Notes: generated by a model from the sequence alone, not told the origin. A stretch of 64,000 nt of DNA from Phycisphaerae bacterium (GCA_022072085.1 JAJVII010000003.1:1-64000), one strand, 5' to 3'. Positions 6,694-44,540 are shown, counted from the first letter of the stretch. Program-made: numbers and translations.

Positions 6694-6805
6694 GAAGTGT
6701 TGAGTGCTGAGTACTGAGTGCTGAGTGCGGAGTGCTGAGTGCGGAGTGCTGAGTGCGGAGTGCTGAGTGCGGAGTGCTGAGTGCGGAGTGCTGAGTGCGG
6801 AGTGC
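6694..6805 (+). repeat. Heptamer tandem array (16 units)
   Basis: Sixteen consecutive 7-bp units without phase slip: GAAGTGT, then TGAGTGC/GGAGTGC alternating in the later part. The next unit degrades to GGAATCA. It resembles short tandemly repeated repetitive (STRR) heptamers described in cyanobacteria. It lies between the divergent ABC binding-protein gene and the PQQ-like gene. Confidence 0.9.
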
Positions 6806-7018: not shown

Positions 7019-8467
7019 ATGATGTTCATGCGTCGACGGGTCGGGATCGGTTCACTGGCGATTCTCCTGGCGCTGCTGGCCTGCGGGTGCGGCAAGGACA
7101 AGCAGGCCGGCGACGGCGGCGCAGCCGCCAAGTCGCCCGCGACGTCGCCCGCCGCCGACGAGCCCCGCAAGTTCGACGGCGAGCCCTCGGACGATCCGGG
7201 AAGCTGGCCTCAGTTCCGCGGGGCGGCCCGTGATGACATCGCCGCCGACGCCAAGGAACTGTTCCGCACCTGGCCGGGCGGCGGACCGAAGGTGCTCTGG
7301 AAGATCGAGGGCCTGGGCGAAGGCTACAGCGGGCCGGCGGTCGCGTCCGGCCGAGTCTTTTTCAACGACTACGACATGCAGAAGAAGGAGTGGTCGGTCC
7401 GCTGCGTCTCGCTGGCCGACGGCAAGGACATCTGGCAGTGGAGTTACGGCGTTCGCATCCCGCGCAACCACGGCGTGACGCGGACGGTGCCCGCGGCCGA
7501 CGACTGCTTCGTCGTCAGCCTCGACCCGCTGGGCACGCTGCACGGCATCGACGCGACGACCGGCAAACAGCTCTGGAAGCACGACCTGTTTCGCGAATAC
7601 GGCAGCGTGGTCCCGGAGTGGTACAACGGTCAGTGCCCGCTGAATGAGACCGACCGAGTCATCGTGGCCGTCGGCGGCACGAAGGAGGTCGAGATCGACG
7701 GCCGCAAGCAGACCGTGCTGATGGCCGCGTTCGATAAGGCCAGCGGCAAGGTCCTCTGGGCGACGCCCAACGCCTCCAAGCACTCGATGAGCCACCCGTC
7801 GGTGATGCCCATGACGCTGGACGGGAAGTTCTACTACGTCTGGACGTCGATGGTCGGCATGGTCGGCGTGACGCGCGAGGGGACGCTGGCGTGGGAGGTC
7901 CTCTGGCCCAAGGCCGACACGCCCGGCCAGTGGCGGGCCAAGACGGCCGTCGCCCCCAGCCCCGTGCAGGTGGGCCCCGACCGCATCTTCCAGACCTCCA
8001 GCTACCGCGCCGGGTCGGCCATGTTCCGCGTCGCTGGCGGCCAGGTCCAGACGCTCTGGACAATCAACGACGACCAGTTCAACAGCGATACGCACACGCC
8101 GATCGTCGTGGGCGACCGCCTGTTCGCCACCTACGCCGAGAAACAGTTCTGCTGCATCGACCCGGCGGACGGTCGCATCGTATGGCAGGGGCCCAAGGAC
8201 CGTACGGTCGGCCTGGGACCGTACCTGATGGCTGACGGGCTGATCTACGTGCTCGAAGCCGACGGCGGCCACCTGGACCTGATCGAAGCCAGCGCCGAGG
8301 GCTGGAAGGAACTGGCCCGCGCCCGCGTGCTGCCCGACAACGCCCAGGAGGCCTGGGCCCCGATGGCCCTGGTCAACGGCAAGCTCATCTGCCGCGACCT
8401 GGGCACGATGGTCTGCCTCCAGGTCGGCCCGCAGCAGCCGCCGGTCAAACCGGCTGGGACGCCATGA
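7019..8467 (+). CDS. PQQ-like beta-propeller repeat lipoprotein
   Basis: About 482 aa. The N-terminus is a lipoprotein signal (SLAILLALLACGCGK; lipobox LLAC or ACGC), so the protein is probably anchored outside the cytoplasmic membrane. The body contains PQQ-type beta-propeller blades with Trp-rich strands such as GSWPQFRGAARDD, GKDIWQWSYG, TGKQLWKHDL and GRIVWQGP, typical of planctomycete PQQ-like proteins. No quinoprotein dehydrogenase catalytic residues are obvious, so it is more likely a scaffold or sensor. ATGs at 7019, 7022 and 7028 are all possible starts after AAGGCGAG. It overlaps the next gene by ATGA and heads a run of iron-sulfur and flavoprotein genes. Confidence 0.85.
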   Translation: MMFMRRRVGIGSLAILLALLACGCGKDKQAGDGGAAAKSPATSPAADEPRKFDGEPSDDPGSWPQFRGAARDDIAADAKELFRTWPGGGPKVLWKIEGLGEGYSGPAVASGRVFFNDYDMQKKEWSVRCVSLADGKDIWQWSYGVRIPRNHGVTRTVPAADDCFVVSLDPLGTLHGIDATTGKQLWKHDLFREYGSVVPEWYNGQCPLNETDRVIVAVGGTKEVEIDGRKQTVLMAAFDKASGKVLWATPNASKHSMSHPSVMPMTLDGKFYYVWTSMVGMVGVTREGTLAWEVLWPKADTPGQWRAKTAVAPSPVQVGPDRIFQTSSYRAGSAMFRVAGGQVQTLWTINDDQFNSDTHTPIVVGDRLFATYAEKQFCCIDPADGRIVWQGPKDRTVGLGPYLMADGLIYVLEADGGHLDLIEASAEGWKELARARVLPDNAQEAWAPMALVNGKLICRDLGTMVCLQVGPQQPPVKPAGTP

Positions 8468-9492
8468 AACGCACGCTCGTCAGCCTGCTGCTCCTGCTGG
8501 CTGTCGTCGCACTGGCGACGGCCGGTGCGCTCTATCGCCGCAGCAAGGTCCCGGTCGTGAACCCGCCCTACATCCCGCCGACGCTGCTGACCTCCGAGCA
8601 GCGCGAGTCGTCCGGCTATGCGCTGAACTACAAGCCGGCCGGCAACGTCGGCGGCGAGGGGCTGTTCGCCTCGACGCTGGCCGGCGTCGCGGTCTACGAC
8701 GGCGGCGGGCAGGACATCCTCTACGCCGCCGGCGACAGCGAGGTGAAGGCCTTCGACCACTGCGCCACGCCGCGTCGGCTGGTCCCCTCGTTCCGCGTCT
8801 CGCTGCCGCCGCTGTCGATCGCCGTGAACGCCGCGGGCGACGTGCTGGTCGGGCAGGCGGGGCAGGTCGAGAAGTACGACCCGGCCGGCCACCTGCTGGC
8901 GACCATCGGCAAAGGCGAACTGGGGCGCGTCACGGCCGTCGGCCAGCGTGGCCAAGAACTGCTGGCCGCCGACGCCGACGGCGGGCTGATCCGGCGTTTC
9001 GACGCGGACGGCCGCCACCTGGGCGACCTGGCCCCGCCGCCGGTCGCAACGACGCAGCCGGACGACGCCGCTGGCGTAGCCCGGTTCCGCATCCGCCCGG
9101 GCGGTCGGCTGGCGATGGCCCTCCTGCCCGACGGCCGCGTCGCGGCGGCTGACCCGATCAACCATTGCGTGGTTCTCTTCGACACCGCTGGCCGGGCCGC
9201 CGACGTGTGGGGCCGGTTCGACGAGCAGGATCCCGCCGGTTTCGTCGCCTGCTGCAATCCGCAGGACCTCGGCGTGCTGTTCGGGCCGGGCGGGCCGGCG
9301 TTGATCGCGGCCGAGAAGGGCATTGCTCGGGTGAAGGTCTACAGCGTGGGCGGCCAACTGCTGGGCCTGATCGACGCGGCTGCGTTCGACCCAGCCAACG
9401 CCCACATGGCGGTGGCGTCCGACGCCGGCGGCCGCATCTACGTCTGCGACACGCAGCGGCGGACGATCCTGCTGTTCGCCCAGGCGCAGTGA
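8464..9492 (+). CDS. NHL-type beta-propeller protein with N-terminal anchor
   Basis: 342 aa. An N-terminal hydrophobic helix (TLVSLLLLLAVVALATAGAL) is a signal peptide or anchor, followed by a propeller with NHL-like repeats. Examples are GDVLVGQAGQVEKYDPAGH, ELLAADADGGLIRRFDADGR, GRVAAADPINHCVVLFDTAG and GRIYVCDTQRRTILLF. The start overlaps the stop of the upstream PQQ-like gene (ATGA), so the two propellers are translationally coupled. The family has no assigned enzymatic role; protein interaction or ligand sensing is likely. Its position upstream of a Tat ferredoxin suggests both belong to one extracytoplasmic complex. Confidence 0.8.
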   Translation: MKRTLVSLLLLLAVVALATAGALYRRSKVPVVNPPYIPPTLLTSEQRESSGYALNYKPAGNVGGEGLFASTLAGVAVYDGGGQDILYAAGDSEVKAFDHCATPRRLVPSFRVSLPPLSIAVNAAGDVLVGQAGQVEKYDPAGHLLATIGKGELGRVTAVGQRGQELLAADADGGLIRRFDADGRHLGDLAPPPVATTQPDDAAGVARFRIRPGGRLAMALLPDGRVAAADPINHCVVLFDTAGRAADVWGRFDEQDPAGFVACCNPQDLGVLFGPGGPALIAAEKGIARVKVYSVGGQLLGLIDAAAFDPANAHMAVASDAGGRIYVCDTQRRTILLFAQAQ

Positions 9493-9648
9493 CGGCAGCG
9501 AATCCGCCGGCCCCGGTGACGGTTGAAGTAACATGCGGGCCGGCGGGAAGGGGTCGCGGCCAACTGACCCGGTCCGCGCCGCTTGGTCGGACCGGCTGGA
9601 TGTGGTATATTTGAGAGGATTGGCGGGGCGGGTTGGGAGTGCGGGCCT

Positions 9649-10260
9649 ATGTGTGCCATGTCCGATGAGCCATCCACTCGGCGGGAGTTTCTCGGGTGCG
9701 TCGCCCGGATCAGCGGGGCGACCGCAATCGGCGTGGCGGCCGTCGGGCTGACTGTGCGCGCCGACGCCGACAAGGTCTGGACGATCGACATCCGCACCTG
9801 CGACGGGTGCGAGAAGTTCAACGCGTCGGCCGACGGGCTCAGCCGCTGCGCGACCGAGTGCGTGCTGAAGAAGTCCGCGGTGAAGGTCGTCAACAAGTTC
9901 GACGAGTGCGGCTACTGCCGCATCTGCCCGGGCTACCACGACGTCAACAGCGAGGTGGACGAAGAGGGCCTGCCGGCCGGACGCGTCTGCCCCTACGACG
10001 CGATCGCGCGGCGGCAGGTGGGTCTGGCTGACCCGGCGCTCAAGAAGAACTGGTTCTACGAATACACCATCGACGAATCCAAGTGCACCGGCTGCGGCAA
10101 GTGCATCATCGGCTGTGCGCCGGAGATGGGCAACGGATCGCTCAAGCTCCAGGTGCGGCACAACCTCTGCGTGGACTGCAACGAGTGCGCGATTGCGACG
10201 GCCTGCCCGACCGACGCTTTCGTTCGCGCCCCGATCGACGCCAAACGGCCCGGACGATGA
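9649..10260 (+). CDS. Tat-exported polyferredoxin (4Fe-4S)
   Basis: 203 aa. A twin-arginine signal is visible (STRREFLGCVARIS followed by a hydrophobic stretch), so the folded protein should be exported with its clusters. Cysteine motifs in order are CDGCEKF, CGYCRICPGY, CPYDAIA, CTGCGKCIIGCAP and CVDCNECAIATACP, enough for about four [4Fe-4S] clusters. It resembles periplasmic electron-carrying ferredoxin subunits paired with NapH-type membrane proteins. Start 9649 follows GGGAG at good spacing; ATG 9658 is possible. Its stop overlaps an ATG of the NapH-NuoE fusion gene, supporting direct electron transfer between the two. Confidence 0.82.
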   Translation: MCAMSDEPSTRREFLGCVARISGATAIGVAAVGLTVRADADKVWTIDIRTCDGCEKFNASADGLSRCATECVLKKSAVKVVNKFDECGYCRICPGYHDVNSEVDEEGLPAGRVCPYDAIARRQVGLADPALKKNWFYEYTIDESKCTGCGKCIIGCAPEMGNGSLKLQVRHNLCVDCNECAIATACPTDAFVRAPIDAKRPGR

Positions 10261-10307
10261 ACAGATTCCCCGCCGGCGGGTCCGCCTGCGGTGGGAAGGA
10301 TACGCTG

Positions 10308-12020
10308 GTGACCCGCTCGTTCCGTCTCATCCTCCCGCTCTGCCTGCTGGCAGGCGCCGCGATGCTCGCAACGGCTGCGCCCGTGCGGGCAGAGCCCCCC
10401 AAGACTTTCCGACAGGCCGTCCCCAGCGACGAGGACATCGGCGACGAATACGGCAAGCCGACCGCCGACAATCCCGAGCCGCGGGCCCAGGCGATGCACT
10501 GGGTCGATCTGGCTCTCTTCGTCGGGGCGCTGGTCGCGGCCGCCTGGCTGATCCACCGCAAGCGCAGCCGGGCGTGGCTGATCGCCCTGGTCACCGCGTC
10601 GGTCCTCTACTTCGGCTTCTACCGCTCCGGGTGTGTCTGCCCGATCGGCGCGACGCAGAACGTTCTGCTCTCGCTGATCGACCGCGGTTACACCATCTCG
10701 ATCGTCATCACGCTCATCTTCCTGCTGCCGCTGGCGGCGGCGCTGTTCATGGGCCGCGTCTTCTGCGGCGGGGTGTGCTGGCTGGGCGGTGTGCAGGATC
10801 TGATCCACCGCCGCACCGTCCGCGTGCCGCGCTGGATGGACAAGACGCTGCGCTGGGGGCGGTGGGTCTACCTCGGCCTGGCGGCCTACTGGGTCGTCGG
10901 CGGCGTGAACCTGCTGTTCTTCGACGGCCGCGTGAAGCGCGAATTCGTCATCTGCAAGTTCGACCCCTTCGTGAACCTGTTCCGCTCGGTCAACGTCCAG
11001 GCGGCCCTCAACGGCACGTGGAACCGCGTGTTCGACCTGGCCGGCCCGTGGTGGATGTGGATCGTCACTGGCGTCGTGCTGGGCAGCGGCATATTCATCG
11101 GCCGACCTTACTGCCGCTGGCTCTGCCCCTACGGCGCCCTGCTGGGCGTCTGCTCGCGGGCCGCGCGGCGCGGCGTTACGGTCATGCCCGACGCCTGCTG
11201 TGACTGCAAGCTCTGCGACGACGCCTGCCCCTACGGCGCGATCGAGGAGCACGCCGCGGTCAAGTCGACCTGCCTCGCTTGCAACCGGTGCTATCAGAGT
11301 TGCCCCCTGGAACGGCAGCGCCTTGGCGTGCCGGTCGCGATGCCGGCGCTGGTGCAACTGGGGACGGGGACCGAAGAGACGCGCTCCCTGACGATCGCAT
11401 CGCCGCGTTCAGGCGCGAGCGTCAGCGATCGCGCGGAGCGTGAAGAGACGCCCGTGCCCGCCGTCGCCGACCGCTCCCCCGTCCGCTATCGCCGCCTGGC
11501 GCCGTCGGCGGACCCCGAGGACATCGCCTACGTCGACGCGATGGTCGCCCTGCACGGCCGTTCCGCCGACGCGGGCCTGCCGATCCTCCAGGCCATCCAG
11601 GCCCGCCACGGGTATCTGCCGCACGCGGCGATCGCCCGCGTGGTCGAGTTGACCGACGCGACGATGGCCCAGGTGATTTCGCTGGCCACCTTCTACAACC
11701 GCTTCCGCACCGACCCGGTGGGCAAGCACCTGGTCCGTGTCTGCGTCGGCACGGCCTGCCACGTGGCCGGGGCCCGGCTGGTCGGCGACGCCCTGCGGCG
11801 GCATCTCGGCATCATGGGCGAGGCCGACACCGACGCCCTGCGGCGGTTCACCGTGCAGGAAGTCGCCTGCGTCGGCTGCTGTTCGCTGGCCCCGGTGGTG
11901 CAGGTCGACGAGCACACCTTCGGCCACCGCACCCCCGACAGCGTGGTCAAGGCGATCGATGCGTACGAGCAGGCAGAGAGAGAACCGCGAATGAACGCGA
12001 CTGGACACGAATCGGAGTGA
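10308..12020 (+). CDS. NapH-like membrane polyferredoxin fused to a NuoE domain
   Basis: About 570 aa. A signal-like N-terminus is followed by several membrane helices with CxC/CxxxC motifs (SGCVCPIG, FCGGVCWLGG, YCRWLCPYG) as in NapH/NosR/MauN-type proteins. Two [4Fe-4S] motifs follow (CDCKLCDDACPYG and CLACNRCYQSCP). A linker leads to a C-terminal thioredoxin-like [2Fe-2S] domain of NuoE type: QARHGYLP, FYNRFRT, VCVGTACH and ACVGCCSLAPVV supply the four cysteines. GTG 10308 has a strong GGAAGGA site and gives a clean signal peptide; the ATG at 10257, overlapping the previous stop, is the alternative. The last ~11 residues are encoded by a decamer repeat. The fusion would wire membrane clusters to the next gene's NADH module. 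Confidence 0.83.
   Translation: MTRSFRLILPLCLLAGAAMLATAAPVRAEPPKTFRQAVPSDEDIGDEYGKPTADNPEPRAQAMHWVDLALFVGALVAAAWLIHRKRSRAWLIALVTASVLYFGFYRSGCVCPIGATQNVLLSLIDRGYTISIVITLIFLLPLAAALFMGRVFCGGVCWLGGVQDLIHRRTVRVPRWMDKTLRWGRWVYLGLAAYWVVGGVNLLFFDGRVKREFVICKFDPFVNLFRSVNVQAALNGTWNRVFDLAGPWWMWIVTGVVLGSGIFIGRPYCRWLCPYGALLGVCSRAARRGVTVMPDACCDCKLCDDACPYGAIEEHAAVKSTCLACNRCYQSCPLERQRLGVPVAMPALVQLGTGTEETRSLTIASPRSGASVSDRAEREETPVPAVADRSPVRYRRLAPSADPEDIAYVDAMVALHGRSADAGLPILQAIQARHGYLPHAAIARVVELTDATMAQVISLATFYNRFRTDPVGKHLVRVCVGTACHVAGARLVGDALRRHLGIMGEADTDALRRFTVQEVACVGCCSLAPVVQVDEHTFGHRTPDSVVKAIDAYEQAEREPRMNATGHESE
11985..12014 (+). repeat. Decamer repeat at the 3' end of the NapH-NuoE gene
   Basis: Three 10-bp units (CCGCGAATGA, ACGCGACTGG, ACACGAATCG) inside the last codons of the fusion gene. 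The same units recur at 12431-12464 downstream of the GxxExxY gene and in reverse complement at 12511-12540. Confidence 0.8.
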
Positions 12021-12024
12021 AGGC

Positions 12025-12441
12025 ATGGGGAGCCCCGAAAGTCCGATGCCTTTCAGAGAGGAGGTCTTTCAAATCGTCGGGTGTGCCATTGAAGTGTTAA
12101 ATGGAATAGGGCATGGCCTGACGGAGAAACCATATGAGAATGCGATCGTCGTAGAGTTCCAGACGCGGGGCATACCGTATGCGCAGCAACCCAGATTCCC
12201 TGTTGCATACAAGGGCGTGACCGTTGGAGAGTTCGTGCCGGACCTGATCGCATACAAGCAGGTTGTGGTTGACGCGAAAGTAGTAGACCGCATCGGCGAA
12301 CATGAGCTTGGACAGATGATTAACTACCTGAGAATCACAGGTCTTCCGGTCGGCGTCATCCTGAATTTCAGACGCGCGAGACTGGAATGGAAACGAGTGG
12401 TCCTTGGTCAGGATGGCGATCGCAAAGAGAACAGCGAATGA
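12025..12441 (+). CDS. GxxExxY family protein
   Basis: 138 aa, matching the small GxxExxY family named for its motif, seen here as GHGLTEKPYENA. The rest is also typical: PYAQQPRFPVAYKGVTVGEF, DLIAYKQVVVDAKVVDRI and LGQMINYLRITGLPVGVILNF. The D-x(n)-DAK region resembles a PD-(D/E)XK nuclease core, but the activity is unproven. GGAGTGAAGGC precedes the ATG. The gene is visibly less GC-rich than its neighbours and sits between nuoE- and nuoF-type genes, flanked on both sides by decamer repeats. This looks like an insertion into the redox operon. Its last residues are also encoded by repeat sequence. Confidence 0.85.
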   Translation: MGSPESPMPFREEVFQIVGCAIEVLNGIGHGLTEKPYENAIVVEFQTRGIPYAQQPRFPVAYKGVTVGEFVPDLIAYKQVVVDAKVVDRIGEHELGQMINYLRITGLPVGVILNFRRARLEWKRVVLGQDGDRKENSE

Positions 12442-12464
12442 ACGCGAATGGACACGACTGGGAC
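12431..12464 (+). repeat. Decamer repeat downstream of the GxxExxY gene
   Basis: Units ACAGCGAATG, AACGCGAATG, GACACGACTG and start of GGACGCGAGC at 10-bp period. The GxxExxY stop codon is formed by the first GAATGA. It matches the array at 11985-12014. Confidence 0.8.
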
Positions 12465-12510
12465 GCGAGCGATAGGTGCGGGGCGCGGGCGCGCGATCCG
12501 CGTCTTCTCT

Positions 12511-12540
12511 CATTCGCGTCCATTTGCGTTCATTCGCGGT
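12511..12540 (-). repeat. Inverted decamer array upstream of the NuoF-like gene
   Basis: CATTCGCGTC, CATTTGCGTT and CATTCGCGGT are the reverse complement of the decamers at 11985 and 12431. About 45 bp separates it from the forward array, so a hairpin could form between the GxxExxY gene and the NuoF-like gene. Confidence 0.8.
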
Positions 12541-12571
12541 TCGTCTTTCCCCGGCGGGACGGGAGGCGTCC

Positions 12572-14458
12572 ATGACCCGGCCACCTGTTGAGATTCGCCT
12601 GGGGCTGGGGTCGTGCTGCGTGGCCAGCGGCAGCCGCGACGTCTATGACGCCGTCGAGCGGACGCTGGGGGCGATGCGGGCCACGGTCACGCTGCGGCAG
12701 GCCGGCTGCGTGGGCATCTGCCACCGCGTGCCCCTGCTGGAGATCATCGAGCCCGGCTGCGAGCCGGTGATGTACGGCAACGTCACGCCCGACGCGGTGC
12801 CGGCGATCCTCAAGCGTCACGTCGAGCCGCAGGGGTTCGGCGGCCGCATGGGCTACTGGGTCCGCCGCGGGTGGTCGCTGCTGACGCGGGACGCGGCCTG
12901 GGGCCGCCCGGGCGAGTTTGTCGTCGACGCCGACGCGGGCCCGGCGGGCGCGTTCTTCGCGCCGCAGATGCGCATCACCACCGAGGCCTGCGGGCGGATG
13001 GATCCCACTGACATCAACGAATACCGCATGCACGACGGCTACGAGGCCCTCCGCCGTGCGGTCCAGGGCATGAAGCCGTCCGACGTGGTCGAGACGATCC
13101 TCGCGTCGCAACTCCGCGGCCGGGGCGGCGCTGGCTTCCCCACCGGCAAGAAGTGGCAGGTCGTCGCCTCCCAGCCGCCGGGCCTGCGCTACGTCATCTG
13201 CAACGGCGACGAGGGCGATCCCGGCGCGTTCATGGACCGCATGCTGCTGGAGGCCTACCCGCATCGCATCCTGGAAGGGGCGGCCATCGCGGCCTACGCC
13301 GTCGGCGCCGAGGAAGTAATCTTCTACATCCGCCAGGAATACCCGCTCGCGGTCCAGCGCGTAACCGAGGCCATCCGCCAGGCGACGGCCGCCGGCGTGC
13401 TGGGCGAGAGCGTCATGGGCACGCCCGTCGCGATCCGCGCTTCGGTGCGCCAGGGCAGCGGTGCGTTCGTCTGCGGCGAGGAGACCGCGCTGATCGCCAG
13501 CATCGAGGGCCGACGCGGCAACCCGCGGCTGCGCCCGCCGTTCCCGGCAGTCTCAGGCTACCTCGGCCGCCCGACCTGCGTGAACAACGTCGAGACGCTG
13601 GGGACCGTGCCGTGGATCGTCCGCCACGGCGCCGAGGCGTTCGCCGCCATCGGCACGCCGTCGAGCAAGGGGACCAAGGTCTTCTCGCTCACCGGCAAGG
13701 TGGCTCGCGGCGGGCTGATCGAGGTGCCGATGGGCATGACCATCCGCCAGATCGTCGAGGAGGTCGGCGGCGGCATCAAGGGCGATCGCGGTTTCAAGTT
13801 CAAGGCCGTTCAGATCGGCGGGCCGAGCGGCGGGTGCATCCCGGCGGAACTGGCCGACACGCCCGTGGACTACGAGGCCCTGACGCGGCTGGGCGCGATC
13901 ATGGGCAGTGGCGGGCTGGTCGTGCTCGACGAGAGCGACTGCATGGTGGACATCGCCCGCTACTTCCTCCAGTTCACGCAGAACGAGAGCTGCGGCAAGT
14001 GCACGTTCTGCCGCATCGGGACCAAGCGGATGCTCGAAATCCTCAACCGGCTCGTCGAGGGCCGCGGCCGCCGCGAGGACCTGGACGAACTGGAGACGTT
14101 GGCTGGGCAGATCACGAAATCGAGCCTCTGCGGTCTCGGCCAGACGGCCCCCAACCCCGTGCTAACCACGTTGAAATATTTCCGCAGTGAGTATGAGGCC
14201 CACATCGACGGGCGCTGCCCAGCCCGCAAGTGCCCGGCGCTGATCCGTTACGAGGTGAACGACAAGTGCATCGGCTGCACCAACTGCGCCCAGGTCTGCC
14301 CGGCCGACGCGATCGAGCCGCGGCCTTACGCATTGCATTGGATCGACCCGGCCAAGTGCACGCGGTGCGACATGTGCGTCCCGGTCTGCCCGACCGAGGC
14401 GATCGACATCGTAACGGGCAAGGCAAGTGTCGAGTTGCGAATTTCAAGTGTCGAGTGA
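12572..14458 (+). CDS. NuoF/HydB-like NADH-binding flavoprotein with ferredoxin tail
   Basis: 628-aa cytoplasmic NADH dehydrogenase module. Residues ~1-100 form a thioredoxin-like [2Fe-2S] domain (GLGSCCVASG and GCVGICHRVP). Next is the NADH/FMN domain with LRGRGGAGFPTGKKW and CNGDEGDPGAFMDR, an SLBB region, and the [4Fe-4S] site ESCGKCTFCRIGT. The tail has two [4Fe-4S] ferredoxin motifs, CIGCTNCAQVCP and CTRCDMCVPVCP. This order matches HydB/HndC-type NuoF proteins of bifurcating and NAD-linked enzymes. GGGAGG precedes ATG 12572. The final 12 codons are a heptamer array. It should accept electrons from, or donate to, the NuoE domain of the upstream fusion. Confidence 0.9.
   Translation: MTRPPVEIRLGLGSCCVASGSRDVYDAVERTLGAMRATVTLRQAGCVGICHRVPLLEIIEPGCEPVMYGNVTPDAVPAILKRHVEPQGFGGRMGYWVRRGWSLLTRDAAWGRPGEFVVDADAGPAGAFFAPQMRITTEACGRMDPTDINEYRMHDGYEALRRAVQGMKPSDVVETILASQLRGRGGAGFPTGKKWQVVASQPPGLRYVICNGDEGDPGAFMDRMLLEAYPHRILEGAAIAAYAVGAEEVIFYIRQEYPLAVQRVTEAIRQATAAGVLGESVMGTPVAIRASVRQGSGAFVCGEETALIASIEGRRGNPRLRPPFPAVSGYLGRPTCVNNVETLGTVPWIVRHGAEAFAAIGTPSSKGTKVFSLTGKVARGGLIEVPMGMTIRQIVEEVGGGIKGDRGFKFKAVQIGGPSGGCIPAELADTPVDYEALTRLGAIMGSGGLVVLDESDCMVDIARYFLQFTQNESCGKCTFCRIGTKRMLEILNRLVEGRGRREDLDELETLAGQITKSSLCGLGQTAPNPVLTTLKYFRSEYEAHIDGRCPARKCPALIRYEVNDKCIGCTNCAQVCPADAIEPRPYALHWIDPAKCTRCDMCVPVCPTEAIDIVTGKASVELRISSVE
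14424..14458 (+). repeat. Heptamer array forming the 3' end of the NuoF-like gene
   Basis: Five 7-bp units in register: CAAGTGT, CGAGTTG, CGAATTT, CAAGTGT, CGAGTGA. The last supplies the TGA stop. They encode a C-terminal tail (SVELRISSVE) not expected in the family. Confidence 0.8.
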
Positions 14459-14464
14459 GGTCCG

Positions 14465-16456
14465 ATGATTCGGCTGACCGTTGACGGACATCCCGTGCAG
14501 GTTCCCGAAGGCGCGACGCTGCTGGACGCGGCCGCGGCGGCCGGCATCGACATCCCCACGCTCTGCAAGGTCGAGGGGCTGCCGCCGCTGACCTCCTGCT
14601 ACGTCTGCCTCGTGCAGGTGGTCGGCGGGCGCGGCGGGCGGCTCAGCCCTTCCTGCGCGACGGCGGCGGAGGAGGGCATGGCCGTCATCACCGATGCGCC
14701 GGAGGTGCGGGCGGCCCGCCGGGCCTCGGTCGAACTGCTGCTCAGCGACCACCTCGGCGAGTGCGCCGCGCCGTGCGAGATTTCCTGCCCCGCCGGATTC
14801 CGCATCCCGACCTTCATGGAATCGCTTGCCGGCGGCGACCGCGAAGCGGCGGCCCGCGTGGCCCGCGACGACCTGGTCCTGCCCGCGATCCTGGGCATGA
14901 TCTGCCCACGATTCTGCGAGCCCAACTGCCGCCGCAAGCAACGCGACGAGGCTGTCTCCATCGCCGAGTTACATCGGCAAGTGGGAGAGAGTGAATGCCC
15001 GGCCGCTTCCGCGGCCGGCTCGGGGGAGGGCGGGTGCAAGTCAGGCAAACGCGTCGCCGTGGTCGGCGCGGGACCGGCGGGGTTGGCGACGGCCTACAAC
15101 CTGCTCCGACGCGGGCACGCTGTGACGATCCTGGACGCGCGCGAGCGGCCCGGCGGGCAGCTCCACTACAGTATCGACGATCATCGCGTGCCCAAGGCGG
15201 TCCTCGCGGGCGAGATCGACGTTATCCGGCGGATGGGCGCCGAGTTCCGCATGAAGACACGGCTGGGCCGCGACGTGACGCTCGCATCGCTGCGCGAGGA
15301 GTTCGACGCGGTGATGATCGCCGTCGGCGCGCCGCGCTGGCAGAAGTTGACTTGTCCCGGCGCGGAGTTGGCAGCCGACGCGGGCGAAGTGATGGCCCGC
15401 ATCGCCGCGGGCGAGCCCGTGGACCTGGGCGGGCGGGTGGCCGTCGTCGGCGACGGGCAGGAGGCCATTGAGGTCGCCCGCACCGCCCGGCGGCGTGGGT
15501 CCGGCCCGGTCACCGTACTCTGCTCGCGGCCGCAGGCCCATCTGCCGCTGTTGGCGGCTCACATCCGGGCGGCCGAGGAGGACGGCGTCGCGTTCGAGTT
15601 CGAGGCGACGGCGTCGGAGATCAGCCGAAATGACGGCGGCGACATGCAGGTCAACTGCACGCGGAAGAAGGGCGAACCGTTCGCGATCGACTGCGACCAC
15701 CTGCTGGCGGCGATGGGCCGCGACGTGGATCTGGAACTGTTCGCCGGCCAGGGCCTGGAGGTCGGCAAACGGGGCGTCAAAGTCAGCCGCGATACGCTGG
15801 CGACGAACCTGCCGGGCGTCTTCGCCGGCGGCGATGCGGTCAGCGGCGGCGGCTTCTGCGTGCGGGCGATCGCCTATGGACAGATGGCGGCCGACGCGAT
15901 CGACCGCTTCCTGCGAGCGCCGGCCGGCCAGTCGCCCGAGCCGGCGCGGCATCCAATCAACGTCCGCTACGGGCCGCTCGCGTCCGAGGAGATGGCGATG
16001 CTGCTGGCGCGGACGGCCAACCCCGGCGGGCGGACGGCGAGGATCGACGACGACGTGGCCGCCCGCGCCGAGGCCGCCCGCTGCCTGATGTGCGGCTGTC
16101 AGGATTCGCACCTCTGCCGGCTGCGCGAGGTGGCGACGCGGCTGGACGCGGACTTCGCCCGGTTCAAGGGCGAGCGGCGGGCGATGCGGCGGGATGACAG
16201 CCATCCGCTGGCGGCCTACGAGTCGCACAAGTGCATCGTCTGCGGGGCGTGTGTGGCCATCGCCGGCGCCGAGCGAGACAAGCTGGGCCTGACCTGGGTG
16301 GGCCGCGGGTTCAACGTCCGCGTCGCGGTCCCGTGGGACGGCCCGATGAGCGATGCCCTGGGCGACCTGGCCCGCCGATGCGCCGAAGCCTGCCCTACCA
16401 GCGCCATCGTCCTGAAGCACCCGCGGCACATCGACTCGTCCGGCGCCCAGGAGTGA
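14465..16456 (+). CDS. [2Fe-2S]/GltD-like NAD(P)H-linked FAD oxidoreductase
   Basis: 663-aa cytoplasmic flavoprotein. Residues 1-75 form a plant-type [2Fe-2S] domain like NuoG's (LCKVEGLPPLTSCYVC, then SCAT). A GltD-like helical cluster-binding part follows (ECAAPCEISCPAGF, CPRFCEPNCRR). Then come an FAD site (VAVVGAGPAGLATAYNLL), a NAD(P) site (VAVVGDGQEAIEVA) and the FAD-closing GVFAGGDAVSGGG. The C-terminus has further cysteine motifs (CLMCGCQDSHLC, CIVCGACVA, CAEACPTSAI). It is related to the small subunit of glutamate synthase and NfnB-type proteins. A palindromic insertion occupies about residues 178-193. It starts 6 nt after the NuoF-like gene and likely forms one complex with it. Confidence 0.87.
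   Translation: MIRLTVDGHPVQVPEGATLLDAAAAAGIDIPTLCKVEGLPPLTSCYVCLVQVVGGRGGRLSPSCATAAEEGMAVITDAPEVRAARRASVELLLSDHLGECAAPCEISCPAGFRIPTFMESLAGGDREAAARVARDDLVLPAILGMICPRFCEPNCRRKQRDEAVSIAELHRQVGESECPAASAAGSGEGGCKSGKRVAVVGAGPAGLATAYNLLRRGHAVTILDARERPGGQLHYSIDDHRVPKAVLAGEIDVIRRMGAEFRMKTRLGRDVTLASLREEFDAVMIAVGAPRWQKLTCPGAELAADAGEVMARIAAGEPVDLGGRVAVVGDGQEAIEVARTARRRGSGPVTVLCSRPQAHLPLLAAHIRAAEEDGVAFEFEATASEISRNDGGDMQVNCTRKKGEPFAIDCDHLLAAMGRDVDLELFAGQGLEVGKRGVKVSRDTLATNLPGVFAGGDAVSGGGFCVRAIAYGQMAADAIDRFLRAPAGQSPEPARHPINVRYGPLASEEMAMLLARTANPGGRTARIDDDVAARAEAARCLMCGCQDSHLCRLREVATRLDADFARFKGERRAMRRDDSHPLAAYESHKCIVCGACVAIAGAERDKLGLTWVGRGFNVRVAVPWDGPMSDALGDLARRCAEACPTSAIVLKHPRHIDSSGAQE
14999..15018. repeat. 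In-frame perfect palindrome inside the GltD-like gene
   Basis: CCGGCCGC-TTCC-GCGGCCGG, 8-bp perfect arms, followed by a G-rich stretch to about 15040. It lies between the cluster-binding and FAD domains and encodes a low-complexity linker (PAASAAGSGEGG). Confidence 0.7.
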
Positions 16457-21357: not shown

Positions 21358-21425
21358 GCTTTGCGTTTTGAAGCCGCCCGCCGGCGGGCTAAGATAGACG
21401 GTTTCGCGTCGGGGCCTGGCCCCGC

Positions 21426-22874
21426 GTGCTCTCTAGCAACGGTGACTCTGTGCCCGTGACCACGCTGGACAGACCGTTTCACGTGATGCTCAAGCCCATC
21501 GGGCCGATCTGCAACCTCGACTGCCGGTACTGCTACTACCTCAGCAAGGAAGACCTGCTCTTCGGCAAGGACAAGCAGGAGACCCTCACCCCGCCCCTCT
21601 CCCTGGAAGGGCGAGGGAGGGGAGGCAAGTGGAAGGTCAGCGAGGAGCGACTGGCCAACTACGTCGGCCAGTATATCGAGGCCAACGCCCGGTTCGGCGA
21701 GGTGAACTTCGCCTGGCAGGGCGGCGAGCCGACGCTGCTGGGCGTGGACTTCTTCCGCTGCGTCGTCGATTTGCAGAAGCGCCTGGCCCCGCCCGGCGTG
21801 CGCGTCTCCAACGCCATGCAAACCAACGGCACGCTGCTGGACGACAAGTGGTGCGAGTTCCTGGCGGCTGAGCGGTTCCTCATCGGCCTGAGCGTCGACG
21901 GCCCGCGCGAGCTGCACGACGTCTACCGCGTCGACAAGAAAGGGCAGCCGAGCTTCGACCAGGTCATGCGCGGCCGCGAGCTGATGGCCAAGCACGGTGT
22001 GGACTTCAACGCCCTGGTGGTCGTCAACCGCCGCAACTCGCAGCACCCGCGTAAGGTCTACCGGTTCATCCGCGACGAGATGGGCTGCCAGTTCATGCAG
22101 TTCATCCCATGCGTCGAGCGGACCGACTTCGTGCAGATCGCCCCGCAGACCTGGGATCCGAAATCGCTGCCGGTGGTGGGGGACCGGTCGGCCAAGCCGG
22201 CCCGCGGCGAGGACGCGCTGGTCAGCGAATGGAGCGTGGCGGCGGAGGATTACGGCCGGTTCCTCTGCGAGGTATTCGACGAGTGGATCGTCCGCGACGT
22301 GGGCCATGTGTTCGTTCAGATCTTCGACGTCGCCCTGGGCCAGTGGATGGGCCTGGGCTCGTCGCTGTGCGTTTTCGCCGAAACCTGCGGCAACGCCCTG
22401 GCGATGGAGCACGACGGGAGCGTCTACTCCTGCGACCACTATGTCTATCCCGAGTACCGCCTGGGCAGCATCGACGAGCGCCCGCTGCTGGAGATGGTGC
22501 AGTCGGACTTCCAGCGTAAGTTTGGCGACGACAAGCGCGACAGCCTGCCGCGCTACTGCCGCGAGTGCCCGGTCCGCTTCGCCTGCAACGGCGAGTGCCC
22601 CAAGAACCGCTTCATCCGCACGCCCGACGGCGAGCCGGGGCTGAACTACCTCTGCGCGGGGCTCAAGCGATTCTTCACCCACATCGACCCCTGGATGCGG
22701 CGGATGGCGGCAGAGGTCCACGCCGGGCGGCCGGCGTCCAACGTCATGAACGTCGCCCGGTCACAGCGGGCGGCGGCCGGCTTCGAGTCCGTTGGGGCCA
22801 ACGATCTCTGCCCGTGCGGCAGCGGCCGCAAATTCAAGAAGTGCTGCATGGGAAAAGCCGGGCGACCCTCCTAG
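21426..22874 (+). CDS. Anaerobic sulfatase maturase-like radical SAM/SPASM protein with SEC-C tail
   Basis: 482 aa. The radical SAM motif is CNLDCRYCYYL (Cys 29, 33, 36), followed by NFAWQGGEPTLLG and MQTNGTLLDD as in anSME enzymes, which convert a sulfatase Cys/Ser to formylglycine. The SPASM region has CxxxxxC-type motifs (SCDHYVYPEYRLG, CRECPVRFACNGECPKNRF). The C-terminus ends in a SEC-C zinc motif (NDLCPCGSGRKFKKCC). Residues 53-67 (LTPPLSLEGRGRGG region) are an in-frame palindromic-element insertion before KVSEERL. The start is uncertain: GTG 21426 is used, and later GTG codons at 21450-21456 are possible. No sulfatase gene lies in the window. Confidence 0.85.
   Translation: MLSSNGDSVPVTTLDRPFHVMLKPIGPICNLDCRYCYYLSKEDLLFGKDKQETLTPPLSLEGRGRGGKWKVSEERLANYVGQYIEANARFGEVNFAWQGGEPTLLGVDFFRCVVDLQKRLAPPGVRVSNAMQTNGTLLDDKWCEFLAAERFLIGLSVDGPRELHDVYRVDKKGQPSFDQVMRGRELMAKHGVDFNALVVVNRRNSQHPRKVYRFIRDEMGCQFMQFIPCVERTDFVQIAPQTWDPKSLPVVGDRSAKPARGEDALVSEWSVAAEDYGRFLCEVFDEWIVRDVGHVFVQIFDVALGQWMGLGSSLCVFAETCGNALAMEHDGSVYSCDHYVYPEYRLGSIDERPLLEMVQSDFQRKFGDDKRDSLPRYCRECPVRFACNGECPKNRFIRTPDGEPGLNYLCAGLKRFFTHIDPWMRRMAAEVHAGRPASNVMNVARSQRAAAGFESVGANDLCPCGSGRKFKKCCMGKAGRPS
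21582..21626. repeat. In-frame GC-rich palindromic element in the radical SAM gene
   Basis: The segment has CCCCTCTCCC opposed to GGGCGAGGGAGGGG across a TGGAA loop, and encodes TLTPPLSLEGRGRGG. Homologues of the enzyme run directly from the helix after the radical SAM motif into the equivalent of KVSEERL. It matches the type of element seen at 6853-6896. Confidence 0.7.
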
Positions 22875-25137: not shown

Positions 25138-26955
25138 TCAGGGGAAGATCATTGCGTCGGCGAACTTCATCTGGAAGCCCATGTCGGCCGAGAGGTCCAC
25201 GTGCTCGGTCGCCCGGGCCAGCGTCTCGGCGCGCTCGCGGGCTGGCTGGCTCAGCAGGGCGAGCTTGGCCCCCATGCTCGCGGCGTTGCCTACAAAGTGA
25301 ATCCGCTCGATCGGCACGTCGGGCAGCAGGCCGATCCGCAGGGCGTTCTCGCGGCGGACGTAGTTGCCGAACGCCCCGGCCAGGAAGACGCTCTCCAGGT
25401 CGCCTGCCGACACGCCGGCCCGCTCCAGCAGGATGGCGATGCCGGCGCGGATCGCACCGCTGGCGAGTTGCAGCTCGCGGATGTCGCGCTGCGTGAGGGC
25501 GACGGCCTCGCCGTCGGGCCCCTCGGCCAGCACGAAGCGGAGCTGCGTCCCTTCGCCGCGGAGCCGCGCCGCCAGCGGCGTCCCGGCAAGTGACTCGGGC
25601 AACTGGAGTCGCCCGGTCGTCTCGACCAGCCCGGCCCGCAGCAGGCCTGCGACCGCGTCGATCAGCGCCGTGCCGCACAGGCCGACCGGGGGCGCGTCGC
25701 CCAGCACGTTGATCCGCACGTCCCCGTCGATGACGACCTTTTCGATCGCCCCGACGGCGGCCCGCATACCCTGGCTGATCCGCGCGCCCTCGAACGCGGG
25801 CCCCGCAGCCGTGCTGGCGGCCCACATGCGACCGGCCTTGGCCAGCACGATCTCGCCGTTGGTGCCGATGTCGATCAGCAGCGTCGGGCCGGGCAGTTCC
25901 GCCAGCCCCGTCGCCAGCAGCCCCGCGACTGTGTCGCCGCCCAGGAACCCGCGGATCGCCGGCAACAGGTAGACCCCGCCGCGCGGATGGATGCCCAGCG
26001 GCAGCACCGCGGCCTCGATGCTCAGGCCCTGCGCGAAGCCGGGCGCGAACGGGATTACCCCCAGCGGTCCCGGGTGCACCCCGGCGAAGATGAGCTGCAT
26101 CGTCGTGTTGCCGGCTACGACCACCTCGCCGATGTCCGCGGCGGCGACGCGGGCCTTGGCGGCCGTCTCGGCGATCATCTCGGCGCAGCCGCGGACGATC
26201 GCGCCGTGCAGGCGGTCCAGCCCGCCGGGCTGCTCGATGCAGATGCGGATCCGCGAGACCACGTCGTCGGCGTACTGGACCTGCGGGTTCAGCCTGGCTG
26301 CGACGGCCAACTCCCGCCCGTCGCGCAAGTCCATCAGCGTCGCTACGACGGTGGTCGTGCCGATGTCGAACGCGACGCCCAGCGGCGAGGCCGGGTCGCG
26401 ACCGGGGGAGACGTTCAGCACGCCGTCGTCCAGCGTGGTGACCGTGACCTCCCACCCGCTGTCGCGCAGCAGCGTGGGCAGCGTGCGGAGCAGTTCGACC
26501 GGCACATGCAGCCCGGGCGTGCCCAGGCCCGCGCGCAGGCGGGCCAGGTCGTCGCGGTCGTCCTCCAGCGTCGGGGGGGCGAGCTTTACGAACCGCCGCC
26601 GCAGGGCCGGGGCTACGTCGATGTTCACCCGCTGGTCGGAGGTGAGAATCTGCTGGGTCGTGCCGTAGACGCTCTCAGCCGGCACGAGCAGCCGGACCGG
26701 AGCGGCCAGTTCGTGCCGACAACCCAGCCGCCAGCCCTCGTCCAGTTGGGCTGCGGTGAACTGTCGGCGGTCGGCGTCCAGCGGTGGCGGCGGGTCGGTG
26801 AGGAACCGTACGCGGCACTTGCCGCAGGTGCCCTCGCCGCCGCAGGGGGTCTGGATGGGCAGGCCGGCCAGCGCCGCTGCCTCCAGCACCGCGCTGCCGG
26901 GCAGCACGTGGGCGGTCCGTCCGCTGGGCTCGAAACGAATCGGCAGTTCGCTCAT
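25138..26955 (-). CDS. Ferredoxin/ASKHA protein, putative corrinoid enzyme activator (RACE type)
   Basis: 605 aa. Residues 1-90 form a [2Fe-2S] ferredoxin domain with CGGEGTCGKC and a later GCRHE. After a linker, a COG3894-type ASKHA ATPase domain follows: GVAFDIGTTTVVATLMDL (phosphate-binding loop), LIDIGTNGEIVLAK, VFLAGAFGNYVRREN and FVGNAASMGAKLALL. RamA/RACE proteins use ATP to reduce inactive Co(II) corrinoid cofactors of methyltransferases or acetogenic enzymes. No corrinoid protein or methyltransferase gene lies in the window, so the partner is unknown. No clear ribosome site is seen before ATG 26955. Confidence 0.88.
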   Translation of the reverse strand: MSELPIRFEPSGRTAHVLPGSAVLEAAALAGLPIQTPCGGEGTCGKCRVRFLTDPPPPLDADRRQFTAAQLDEGWRLGCRHELAAPVRLLVPAESVYGTTQQILTSDQRVNIDVAPALRRRFVKLAPPTLEDDRDDLARLRAGLGTPGLHVPVELLRTLPTLLRDSGWEVTVTTLDDGVLNVSPGRDPASPLGVAFDIGTTTVVATLMDLRDGRELAVAARLNPQVQYADDVVSRIRICIEQPGGLDRLHGAIVRGCAEMIAETAAKARVAAADIGEVVVAGNTTMQLIFAGVHPGPLGVIPFAPGFAQGLSIEAAVLPLGIHPRGGVYLLPAIRGFLGGDTVAGLLATGLAELPGPTLLIDIGTNGEIVLAKAGRMWAASTAAGPAFEGARISQGMRAAVGAIEKVVIDGDVRINVLGDAPPVGLCGTALIDAVAGLLRAGLVETTGRLQLPESLAGTPLAARLRGEGTQLRFVLAEGPDGEAVALTQRDIRELQLASGAIRAGIAILLERAGVSAGDLESVFLAGAFGNYVRRENALRIGLLPDVPIERIHFVGNAASMGAKLALLSQPARERAETLARATEHVDLSADMGFQMKFADAMIFP

Positions 26956-26963
26956 GGGGGCAG

Positions 26964-27033
26964 GGCTCGTGGCCCGTGACTAATGGCGCGTGGCTCGTGA
27001 CGGACCACGGACCACTAGCCACAAGCCACTCTC
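26964..27033. repeat. Heptamer array with converging halves
   Basis: Ten 7-bp units in perfect register: GGCTCGT, GGCCCGT, GACTAAT, GGCGCGT, GGCTCGT, GACGGAC, CACGGAC, CACTAGC, CACAAGC, CACTCTC. The second half is rich in the complement of the first, giving a partly palindromic array. It fills the gap between two minus-strand genes. Confidence 0.75.
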
Positions 27034-41939: not shown

Positions 41940-44492
41940 TCAGATGAACAGGCTGACGCGCCCGGCGGCGGCGGTGTCCATGAAACTGGCCACCCCGCCG
42001 AACTCGACGCCCTCCAGCAGGTCCGCGTCTCGAAGCCCCAGCATGTCCATCGACATGCGGCAGGCGACCAGTCGGACGCCCGCCGACCGCGCCGACGCCA
42101 GCAGTTCATCCAGGTTCATCACGTTCTTGCCCTTCATGCGGCGGTTCATCAGCCAGCGTCCGGCCCCGGCGAAGTGCCACTGGCTCAGCTTCATCTTCCG
42201 CCCGCCGGCTGGCAGCATCCACGCGAACATTCGGTCCAGCAGCGACCGCTTCTGCCCGCGGGCGACGCGCGGGCGGCGGAGCAGGCTCAGGCCCCAGAAG
42301 GTGAAAAAAAGCGTCGAGGGCATGCCGTTGGCGGCTGCCCCGTTGGCCAGCACCAGCGCCGCCAGGGCCTTGTCCATCGAGCCGGAAAAGACCACCGCGG
42401 TGAAACCGGCCGGCCCGTCGTTCGGCGACTGGCTCCGGGCGTCGGCCGGTTGAACGTGCGGCGGCGACTTCTCGACCAGGGCGACGATGTGGCCGTTGTC
42501 GCGATGGCAATCCACCAGGCGGTTGCCGGTCCGATGGGCCCAGGCCGCCACGTCGGCGCCAAACGCCGGATCACCTGCGACGATACGGATGCGGTCGCCG
42601 ACGGCTGCGACTCGCACCGCGTCAGACAACTTCAGCAGCGGGCCGGGGCACTGGAGCTGCCGGGCGTCCACCTCCGCGACGGGGGCTGAGCCGCTTGTGT
42701 CCTTGCCGTCGCGGCCGGATGCGGCGGTCGGTTTGTCGCTCTTCGTCTCGACCGACGGCAGGCCGCCCGCGCCGCCCGGCCCGCCGGCTGGGGGCTTGGG
42801 CGAAAGGGGACGGGCGTCAGCCGGCGCGTGCGTCGCCCGATAGGTCGTGTACCCGCCGCTCAGGTTGGACGCCCGGAAGCCGCGCTGCTTGAGGATCCGC
42901 TCGGCCAGGTAGGCCCGCATGCCCACGCCGCAGTACACGTGGATCGCCCGGTCCTTGGGCAGCTCAGCCAGTCGGCTGCGCAGCTCGTCCACCGGGATGT
43001 TCACCGCGCCGGGGACCATGCCCGCGTCGCACTCGACGCAGGTTCGCACGTCCAGCATGAACTCGTCGCCGGCGTCGTCGAAGTGCGACACATCACTGAC
43101 CCCGCGAAGCGCGTTGCAGGCGATCGCCCCGGCGATGTTCACCGGATCCTTCGCGGCGCCGAACTGCGGCGCGTAGGCCAGTTCCATCTCACGCAGGTCG
43201 TGAACCGTCAGCCCGTGCCGCACGGCGACCGCCAGCACGTCGATCCGTTTGTCCACGCCCGCCGGCCCGTAGGCCTGGGCCCCGAGCACGCGGCCGCTCT
43301 GTGGGTCGAACAGCAGCTTGATGTGCAACTGCTGGGCGCCGGGATAGTAGCCGGCGTGGTCAGCGGCATGGACGTAGACCTTCTCGCAGGCCAGGCCGGC
43401 CTGGCGGAGTTGACGCTCGTTGGCGCCGGTCGTTGCGACCTGGAGGTCGAACACGCCGACGATGCCCGTGCCCTGCGTCGTGCGATAGCTGTCGTCCGGC
43501 TCACCGAAGATGTGGTTGGCCGCCGCCCGGGCCTGCTTGTGGGCTGGGCCGGCCAGCGGAATCAGCACCGGCTGACCGGTGACCGTGTGGGTCGTCTCGA
43601 CGGCGTCGCCGACGGCGTAGATCAGCGGATCGCTGGTCTGCATGTGCTCGTTGACGCGGATGCCGCCGGTGACGCCGATGTCCAGGCCGGCCTTGCGGGC
43701 CAGCGTCGTTTCCGGCCGAACGCCGATCGCCAGCACCGCGAAGTCGGCGTCGATCGACGTGCCGCTCTCCAGGTTCACGCGGAGCCGGTCGCCTGTGCTG
43801 GCAAAGCCGGCGACGCCGTCGCCCAGGACCAACTCGACGCCATGCGAGACGACGTGGGCCCCGACGGCGGCCGCCATCTCCTTGTCCATCGGTGCGAAGA
43901 CCTGGTCGAGCTTCTCGACCAGCGTGACCGACAGGCCGCGGCGGCGGAGGTTCTCGGCCATCTCCAGGCCGATGAACCCGGCGCCGATGACCACGGCCCG
44001 GGACCCGTCACGGGCGGCGGCCTCGAGGCGGTCCATGTCCGCGACGTTCCGCAGCGTCATCACCCGCGGGTCGTCGATGCCCGCCAGGGTCGGGCGAATC
44101 GGGTCGGCCCCGGGCGAAAGGACCAGCCGGTCGTAGCTCACCTCGCCGGTCTGGCCCGTGGCGTGGTTGAGGACGGTCACCTTGCGGCCCGGGCGGTCGA
44201 TGGCGGTGACCTCGCTGCGGTTGCGGACCTCGATGTTGTATCGCTCGCGGAAGGAGGCTGCCGCTCGACCGACGAGCTTGTCGCGCTCGCGGATCACGCC
44301 GCCGACGTGATAGGGAAGGCCGCAGTTGGCGAAGCTGACGTGCTCGCCGCGTTCGAGCATGAGGATGTCGGCGTCCTCGTTCAATCGCCGGCACCGGGTT
44401 GCGCAGGTAGCGCCGCCGGCGACGCCGCCGACAATGACGATCCTCAGTTTCGACTTCGATCCCTGGGTCGTGGTTTCCGCTGATGAAGGCAT
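41940..44492 (-). CDS. CoA-disulfide reductase-like flavoprotein fused to rhodanese, TusA and DsrE domains
   Basis: 850 aa. Residues 1-~455 form an FAD/NAD(P) pyridine nucleotide-disulfide oxidoreductase: VIVGGVAGGATCATRCRRL, SFANCGLPYHVGG (active Cys), AVVIGAGFIGLEMAENL, YAVGDAVETT. A rhodanese domain follows (HVYCGVGMRAYLAERIL, catalytic Cys). A Gly/Pro-rich linker leads to a TusA domain (DARQLQCPGPLLKLSDAV, CPGP motif). A DsrE/DsrF-like domain ends the chain (VVFSGSMDKALAALVLANG, RLVACRMSMDMLGL). All parts handle persulfide sulfur, so the protein probably moves or reduces sulfane sulfur within one chain. The ArsR gene just upstream likely controls it. Confidence 0.92.
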   Translation of the reverse strand: MPSSAETTTQGSKSKLRIVIVGGVAGGATCATRCRRLNEDADILMLERGEHVSFANCGLPYHVGGVIRERDKLVGRAAASFRERYNIEVRNRSEVTAIDRPGRKVTVLNHATGQTGEVSYDRLVLSPGADPIRPTLAGIDDPRVMTLRNVADMDRLEAAARDGSRAVVIGAGFIGLEMAENLRRRGLSVTLVEKLDQVFAPMDKEMAAAVGAHVVSHGVELVLGDGVAGFASTGDRLRVNLESGTSIDADFAVLAIGVRPETTLARKAGLDIGVTGGIRVNEHMQTSDPLIYAVGDAVETTHTVTGQPVLIPLAGPAHKQARAAANHIFGEPDDSYRTTQGTGIVGVFDLQVATTGANERQLRQAGLACEKVYVHAADHAGYYPGAQQLHIKLLFDPQSGRVLGAQAYGPAGVDKRIDVLAVAVRHGLTVHDLREMELAYAPQFGAAKDPVNIAGAIACNALRGVSDVSHFDDAGDEFMLDVRTCVECDAGMVPGAVNIPVDELRSRLAELPKDRAIHVYCGVGMRAYLAERILKQRGFRASNLSGGYTTYRATHAPADARPLSPKPPAGGPGGAGGLPSVETKSDKPTAASGRDGKDTSGSAPVAEVDARQLQCPGPLLKLSDAVRVAAVGDRIRIVAGDPAFGADVAAWAHRTGNRLVDCHRDNGHIVALVEKSPPHVQPADARSQSPNDGPAGFTAVVFSGSMDKALAALVLANGAAANGMPSTLFFTFWGLSLLRRPRVARGQKRSLLDRMFAWMLPAGGRKMKLSQWHFAGAGRWLMNRRMKGKNVMNLDELLASARSAGVRLVACRMSMDMLGLRDADLLEGVEFGGVASFMDTAAAGRVSLFI

Positions 44493-44540
44493 CTTTCTGG
44501 TCCTTGTTGCATGGCGGCTGATGAATCCGGCGCCGATGAC

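Follow-up and report, generated by a model that had tools for sequence, protein, structure and literature searches.

The Rnf complex connects ferredoxin, NADH, and a membrane iron-sulfur (Fe-S) path. Among enzymes of the Bfu family, Type 1 includes StnABC of Sporomusa ovata and Nfn-Bfu of Thermococcus sibiricus (PMC10482914, PMC9304861), and the predicted membrane-bound forms Nuo-Bfu and Mbh-Bfu place a Bfu core on the membrane subunits of complex I or Mbh (PMC9304861). Here we describe a gene cluster at positions 7019-16456 of a 64,000-nucleotide stretch of DNA from a Phycisphaerae bacterium (GCA_022072085.1 JAJVII010000003.1:1-64000; the window), in which a core of this type stands beside a NapH-like membrane protein, an exported ferredoxin, and extracytoplasmic propellers. 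With a probability of roughly 55%, we propose that these genes encode one membrane-spanning redox complex, in which a Bfu-type core would be wired via the NapH-like protein to the exported ferredoxin and the propellers, and in which electrons would likeliest flow outward. The Bfu papers we examined mention neither NapH nor propellers, and the gene combination was not described in the open-licence papers we searched, which is weak evidence of absence. As stated in an earlier reading of the DNA (the original prediction), the seven open reading frames (ORFs) run in the same direction and are almost contiguous, and Pfam and NCBIfam bear out the domain make-up given there:

7019..8467, plus strand: PQQ1, an exported PQQ_2/BamB-like propeller with the lipobox LLAC (Pfam PQQ_2, AlphaFold2, Foldseek; conserved 5' of NHL)
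8464..9492, plus strand: NHL propeller with an N-terminal anchor or signal and an invariant CCN(P) motif (Pfam NHL, AlphaFold2, Foldseek)
9658..10260, plus strand: ferredoxin exported by twin-arginine translocation (Tat), with 16 Cys in four [4Fe-4S] motifs (Fer4 domains; start 9658, alternatively 9649)
10257..12020, plus strand: NapH-like membrane polyferredoxin (about 10257-11450) fused to a NuoE/StnA-like [2Fe-2S] domain (about 11514-12017) (Pfam/NCBIfam, PDB matches)
12025..12441, plus strand: GxxExxY protein (PDDEXK_3; TIGR04256), an inserted hitchhiker
12572..14458, plus strand: NuoF/BfuB/StnB-like subunit with a flavin mononucleotide (FMN) and NADH site and clusters B1-B4 (PDB matches, ligand counts)
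14465..16456, plus strand: NuoG-N [2Fe-2S] and GltD-like flavoprotein (BfuA/StnC-like) without an FdhF-like C-terminal domain, containing a degenerate NAD(P)H domain at about 15362-15784 (PDB matches)

The system is widespread and its gene order is strongly conserved. An alignment of the exported ferredoxin, used as query against one genome per species, gave at least 578 confirmed relatives. The best 80 of these, assigned by record title, fall into about 10 phyla, so the cluster is not planctomycete-specific; they include Planctomycetota, Verrucomicrobiota, Bacteroidota, Lentisphaerota and Kiritimatiellae, KSB1, Sumerlaeota, Armatimonadota, Omnitrophota, Firestonebacteria, Caldithrix, Chitinispirillales, and others. 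Rhodopirellula sallentina SM41 (L128) and Aporhodopirellula aestuarii (L100) are cultured hosts among them. The relatives are not near-copies, since median pairwise identity of the ferredoxin is 55%. The complete set of seven system genes, arranged as PQQ1-NHL-ferredoxin-NapH-PQQ2-NuoEF-GltD, is found at 38 of the 51 loci that have 4 kb or more of upstream and 8.5 kb or more of downstream flank; nowhere among them is the order violated, which excludes chance grouping. The original prediction held that finding the propellers unlinked from NuoE, NuoF, and GltD in related genomes would refute it; instead, linkage is kept across the phyla sampled. Of 61 genomes, one being that of the window and the other 60 from the same class, 23 carry the gene set; the ferredoxin occurs in 37 of 392 genomes drawn from Planctomycetota, and no plasmid-borne ferredoxin was matched in 72,556 records. 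No additional partner gene universal to the loci was found; FtsX-type permease/ABC ATPase genes lie upstream in about 19 to 25 loci, and a gene of about 390 amino acids lies downstream in 19.

Judged by these comparisons, the window itself is a derived form, in which propeller 2 has been lost, NuoE has moved from NuoF to NapH, and one B2 ligand is missing. The NapH-NuoE fusion noted in the original prediction is present and is not an assembly error, because a sister genome (L033) has the same fusion, yet it is restricted to the window's family (G000 and G001). In other genomes the fusion partner of NuoE is NuoF, and a membrane-anchored second propeller comes after NapH. We looked for a full version of that propeller in the genomes of the window and its sister but found none, only matches to propeller domains without the N-terminal part. 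Six of the seven genes that the original prediction grouped together do belong together. The GxxExxY protein was rejected as a subunit: the sister genome lacks it at this position, and its NuoF and NapH-NuoE ORFs overlap without an intervening gene. GxxExxY genes occur at another place in three other loci (L037:13706-14191, L038:13400-13885, and L052:4078-4716), as if they hop into the operon repeatedly, at positions that differ from genome to genome.

By homology, the cytoplasmic flavoproteins form a Bfu/Stn-type (HydBC-like) bifurcating core. In searches of the PDB, NuoF matched NfnB (9n5u_B, E 1e-210), 9bov_B (5e-210), and StnB (8oh5_B, 3e-203) before hydrogenase subunits; the NuoE domain matched best to StnA (8oh5_A, E 2e-34), a BfuC/NuoE-like subunit with a [2Fe-2S] cluster; and the GltD-like protein matched best to 9bov_A, NfnA, and StnC. 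The NuoE, NuoF, and NuoG-N/GltD-like proteins thus have their closest PDB relatives in StnABC and Nfn-Bfu, with which they have in common the ligands of FMN, of clusters B1-B4 (in the window, with the exception of the fifth B2 position), and of the NuoG-N [2Fe-2S] cluster. In the window, NuoF has a Trx-like domain at its N terminus and two [4Fe-4S] motifs at its C terminus. The Cys of B1, B3, and B4 are present in the window and in 60 to 61 of 61 NuoF sequences. In bifurcating BfuB, the B2 cluster has a His ligand that is missing from non-bifurcating homologues (PMC9304861); here, all 61 sequences have His544 and the B2 ligands C457, C549, and C554, and the residue at the fifth B2 position varies: Cys (57 sequences), Thr (2), Arg (1), and, in the window, Val. 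Cys 15, 16, 46, and 50 of the Trx-like domain, candidate ligands of a B5 cluster, occur in 55, 60, 61, and 52 of the 61 sequences; StnB is without a B5 cluster (PMC10482914). The original prediction of a conduit, with possible flavin-based bifurcation by two flavoproteins with many clusters, is backed by conserved linkage and by the type of core, with one change: by homology, bifurcation would take place at the NuoF FMN together with Fe-S clusters close by, and not at two flavins (PMC9304861, PMC10482914).

Of 58 GltD-like subunits, 54 have a deletion of the NAD(P)H-binding domain, and the other 4, the window included, have a degenerate version with motifs such as GDGQEA where StnC and NfnA have GGGNTA. 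The GxGxxG motif for flavin adenine dinucleotide (FAD) is present in 57 of the 58, and every sequence retains the Fe-S ligands, apart from one exception at C551. Arg239 of StnC lies beside the FAD (PMC10482914); the window has Arg at this position, but only 7 of the 58 sequences do. The FAD module named in the original prediction is thus found, but it has probably ceased to act as an NAD(P)H dehydrogenase; with that domain lost and the Fe-S ligands kept, the subunit looks like a multi-cluster wire. Because the NADPH domain is lost or degenerate and Arg239 is not conserved, NADP(H) is probably not the third substrate. One GltD-like subunit (L051:3696-5279, minus strand) lacks the FAD GxGxxG motif and retains the Fe-S ligands, and offers a natural test of the need for FAD.

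The membrane protein and its exported partner share with Escherichia coli NapGH and NapH-like flavinylated systems (PMC8238504) a Tat four-cluster ferredoxin, two Cx3C motifs, and a cytoplasmic [4Fe-4S] site. Eleven Cys (126, 128, 170, 174, 233, 286, 290, 314, 317, 320, and 324) are invariant in 95 of 95 NapH-like sequences. A simple hydropathy and charge estimate predicts C170, C174, C286, and C290 to lie on the cytoplasmic side of the membrane, and C126, C128, and C233 on the outer side; in E. coli NapH the first four are present, whereas the outer three are P, F, and W. The window protein scores 32 bits against NCBIfam equivalog and subfamily cut-offs of 234 and 213 for NapH. The extra outer-face triad (CxC...C) suggests a transmembrane Fe-S path through the NapH-like protein. 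Unlike in the NapGH and flavinylated systems, there is a linkage to a Bfu core, and no FMN-binding domain or ApbE partner was seen in the loci. In the exported ferredoxin, the RR motif and the Cys are conserved in an alignment of 99 sequences, 92 of which have a Tat-like motif.

Both propellers of the window were modeled, with a mean predicted local distance difference test score of 81 for PQQ1 and 84 for the NHL protein. Foldseek placed BamB first and tetrathionate hydrolase next for PQQ1, and returned only generic NHL domains, propellers, and PAL for the NHL protein. PQQ1 and NHL share their folds with BamB, tetrathionate hydrolase, and NHL propellers, but identity is low (about 12 to 20%) and the conserved residues and gene context are different. 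In the NHL protein, C263, C264, and N265 (the CCNP motif) are invariant in 87 sequences. A Tat-like signal is present in 29 of 89 NHL proteins, so that a cofactor may be loaded in the cytoplasm. Separately, loci of Bacteroidota and KSB1 (L058, L103, and L131 of Bacteroidota, and L060 and L102) have two to four extra PQQ1-like propeller genes ahead of PQQ1, and the NHL protein of two Verrucomicrobia loci (L081 and L120) bears a Tat signal.

How might such parts work together? In the proposed complex, homology would put NADH binding at the NuoF FMN and ferredoxin binding at the two C-terminal [4Fe-4S] clusters of NuoF. Having lost its NAD(P)H site, the NuoG-N/GltD-like subunit would serve as the multi-cluster wire and exchange electrons with the NapH-like protein; in the window, fusion of the NuoE domain to the latter would physically tie the core to the membrane protein. 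Electrons would cross the membrane between the predicted cytoplasmic-face Cys4 site and the extra outer-face Cys3 site, and then pass via the exported four-cluster ferredoxin to an outer redox site or partner presumably held by the propellers. Run outward, this would be confurcation: NADH and reduced ferredoxin would be oxidized together and something outside the cytoplasm reduced, aided by the membrane potential. We favor this direction because Bfu cores join the electrons of NADH and ferredoxin, low-potential ferredoxins lie outside, and the membrane potential favors outward flow. A more specific proposal, which we regard as a serious possibility short of probable, is that a widespread Bfu enzyme has acquired an extracytoplasmic third substrate by discarding its NADP site and joining its wire to an Fe-S conduit, such that joint oxidation of NADH and ferredoxin would drive a low-potential reduction outside.

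The same complex could run in reverse, with an outer donor oxidized at the propellers and electrons moving inward for the core to bifurcate to NAD+ and ferredoxin. We consider this unlikely: inward flow is opposed by the membrane potential and would require an outside donor near -400 mV, and Pfam and NCBIfam recognize no dehydrogenase in the gene set. Three extracytoplasmic propellers could nonetheless hold one, Bfu cores are reversible (PMC9304861), and NapH-like systems from oxidases are known (PMC8238504). Somewhat less likely again is an exchange of electrons between the NapH-like protein and menaquinone, which would make the system a Nuo-Bfu-like or NapGH-like module with the outer ferredoxin as a side branch. 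NapH is the quinol dehydrogenase of nitrate reduction, and the homology to it in the Cx3C motifs is in keeping with such a role. Nuo-Bfu, moreover, uses menaquinone (PMC9304861). The outer-face triad conserved in the 95 sequences, however, would have no role in a plain quinol dehydrogenase. The notion that the propellers are pyrroloquinoline quinone (PQQ) enzymes feeding the ferredoxin finds some encouragement in Pfam matches to PQQ_2 and PQQ, but we rejected it and give it hardly any credence. The PQQ-dependent dehydrogenase model scored 29.5 bits against a cut-off of 480, the closest fold is BamB, and the pqqE cut-off was reached in 0 of 18 set-bearing genomes, a count for which the control genomes gave no positive control; the complete genome G018 had no match of any strength.

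Lastly, an ordinary Stn-type NAD(P)H:ferredoxin enzyme might simply neighbor an unrelated exported-propeller/NapH system. In favor of two such units, the genomes of L081 and L120 contain no NuoEF of this family, even though NHL, ferredoxin, NapH, and propeller 2 are present. Order kept across about 10 phyla, the NuoE-NapH fusion in the window's family, and the deletion or degeneration of the NADP(H) domain in each of the 58 GltD-like subunits speak the other way and make this very unlikely; with the NADPH site looked for and not found in these subunits, the system is neither an ordinary transhydrogenase nor an Stn transhydrogenase. Several points nevertheless weigh against the single outward-conducting complex that we prefer. 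L081 and L120 count here as well, and in L123 and L118 NuoEF of this family is on a separate contig (in L132 it lies farther along apparently the same contig), so the membrane part can pair with a different cytoplasmic partner. Val495 (codon 14054-14056) replaces the fifth B2 ligand in the window, which is a real caution because most BfuB are reported to have Cys or Thr there (PMC9304861). The preference for outward flow comes from energetic arguments. The link to host lifestyle, which otherwise counts in favor of the complex, carries a caveat as well: haem-copper oxidases occur in 6 of 23 genomes of the class with the set and in 29 of 38 without (Fisher p = 1.7e-4), and the strongest matches in 2 of 23 and 29 of 38 (p = 2e-7), both uncorrected for kinship.

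On balance, the system is best filed as a Bfu family variant with a transmembrane partner. From Stn/Nfn-Bfu it differs in the features of the GltD-like subunit given above, the absent FdhF-like domain included, and in its linkage to a membrane protein, exported ferredoxin, and propellers; from Nuo-Bfu and Mbh-Bfu, which likewise set a Bfu core on a membrane module, in having a NapH-like polyferredoxin with an extracytoplasmic ferredoxin and propellers; and from Rnf in that the set contains no Rnf membrane subunits, the RnfB and RnfC models showing only resemblance of Fe-S and FMN motifs, well under cut-off. The original interpretation is partly supported: it is upheld as a conserved system, and its mechanism is something we infer.

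The window host can make reduced ferredoxin, judging from three 2-oxoacid:ferredoxin oxidoreductase matches in its genome, which also has weaker haem-copper oxidase matches. Directly 5' of the operon lies a 14-bp tandem repeat (7.4 copies, 97% matches; 6696-6805, or 6702-6805 by a second delimitation), and no sigma-70-like promoters were found. Near the operon and not conserved with it is a Radical SAM/SPASM/SEC-C protein of the anaerobic sulfatase-maturase kind (21393-22871). Farther along, on the minus strand, are a RACo-like protein with middle, linker, and ASKHA C-terminal domains (25141-26979; a reductive activator of corrinoid proteins) and a fusion of pyridine nucleotide-disulphide oxidoreductase, rhodanese, TusA, and DsrE-like domains (41943-44540) that suggests sulfur or persulfide handling.

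If our reading is correct, hundreds of genomes, most of them from uncultured lineages but cultured Rhodopirellula among them, would encode an undescribed membrane redox complex, and the proposal is open to experiment in cultivable strains. The Bfu family would gain a third substrate outside the cytoplasm, and ferredoxin-level electrons would have a route across the membrane other than Rnf. Such a complex would help explain how NADH and ferredoxin are balanced in bacteria mostly without classical oxidases, and would represent an unstudied way for mostly anaerobic bacteria to pass electrons into or out of the cell.

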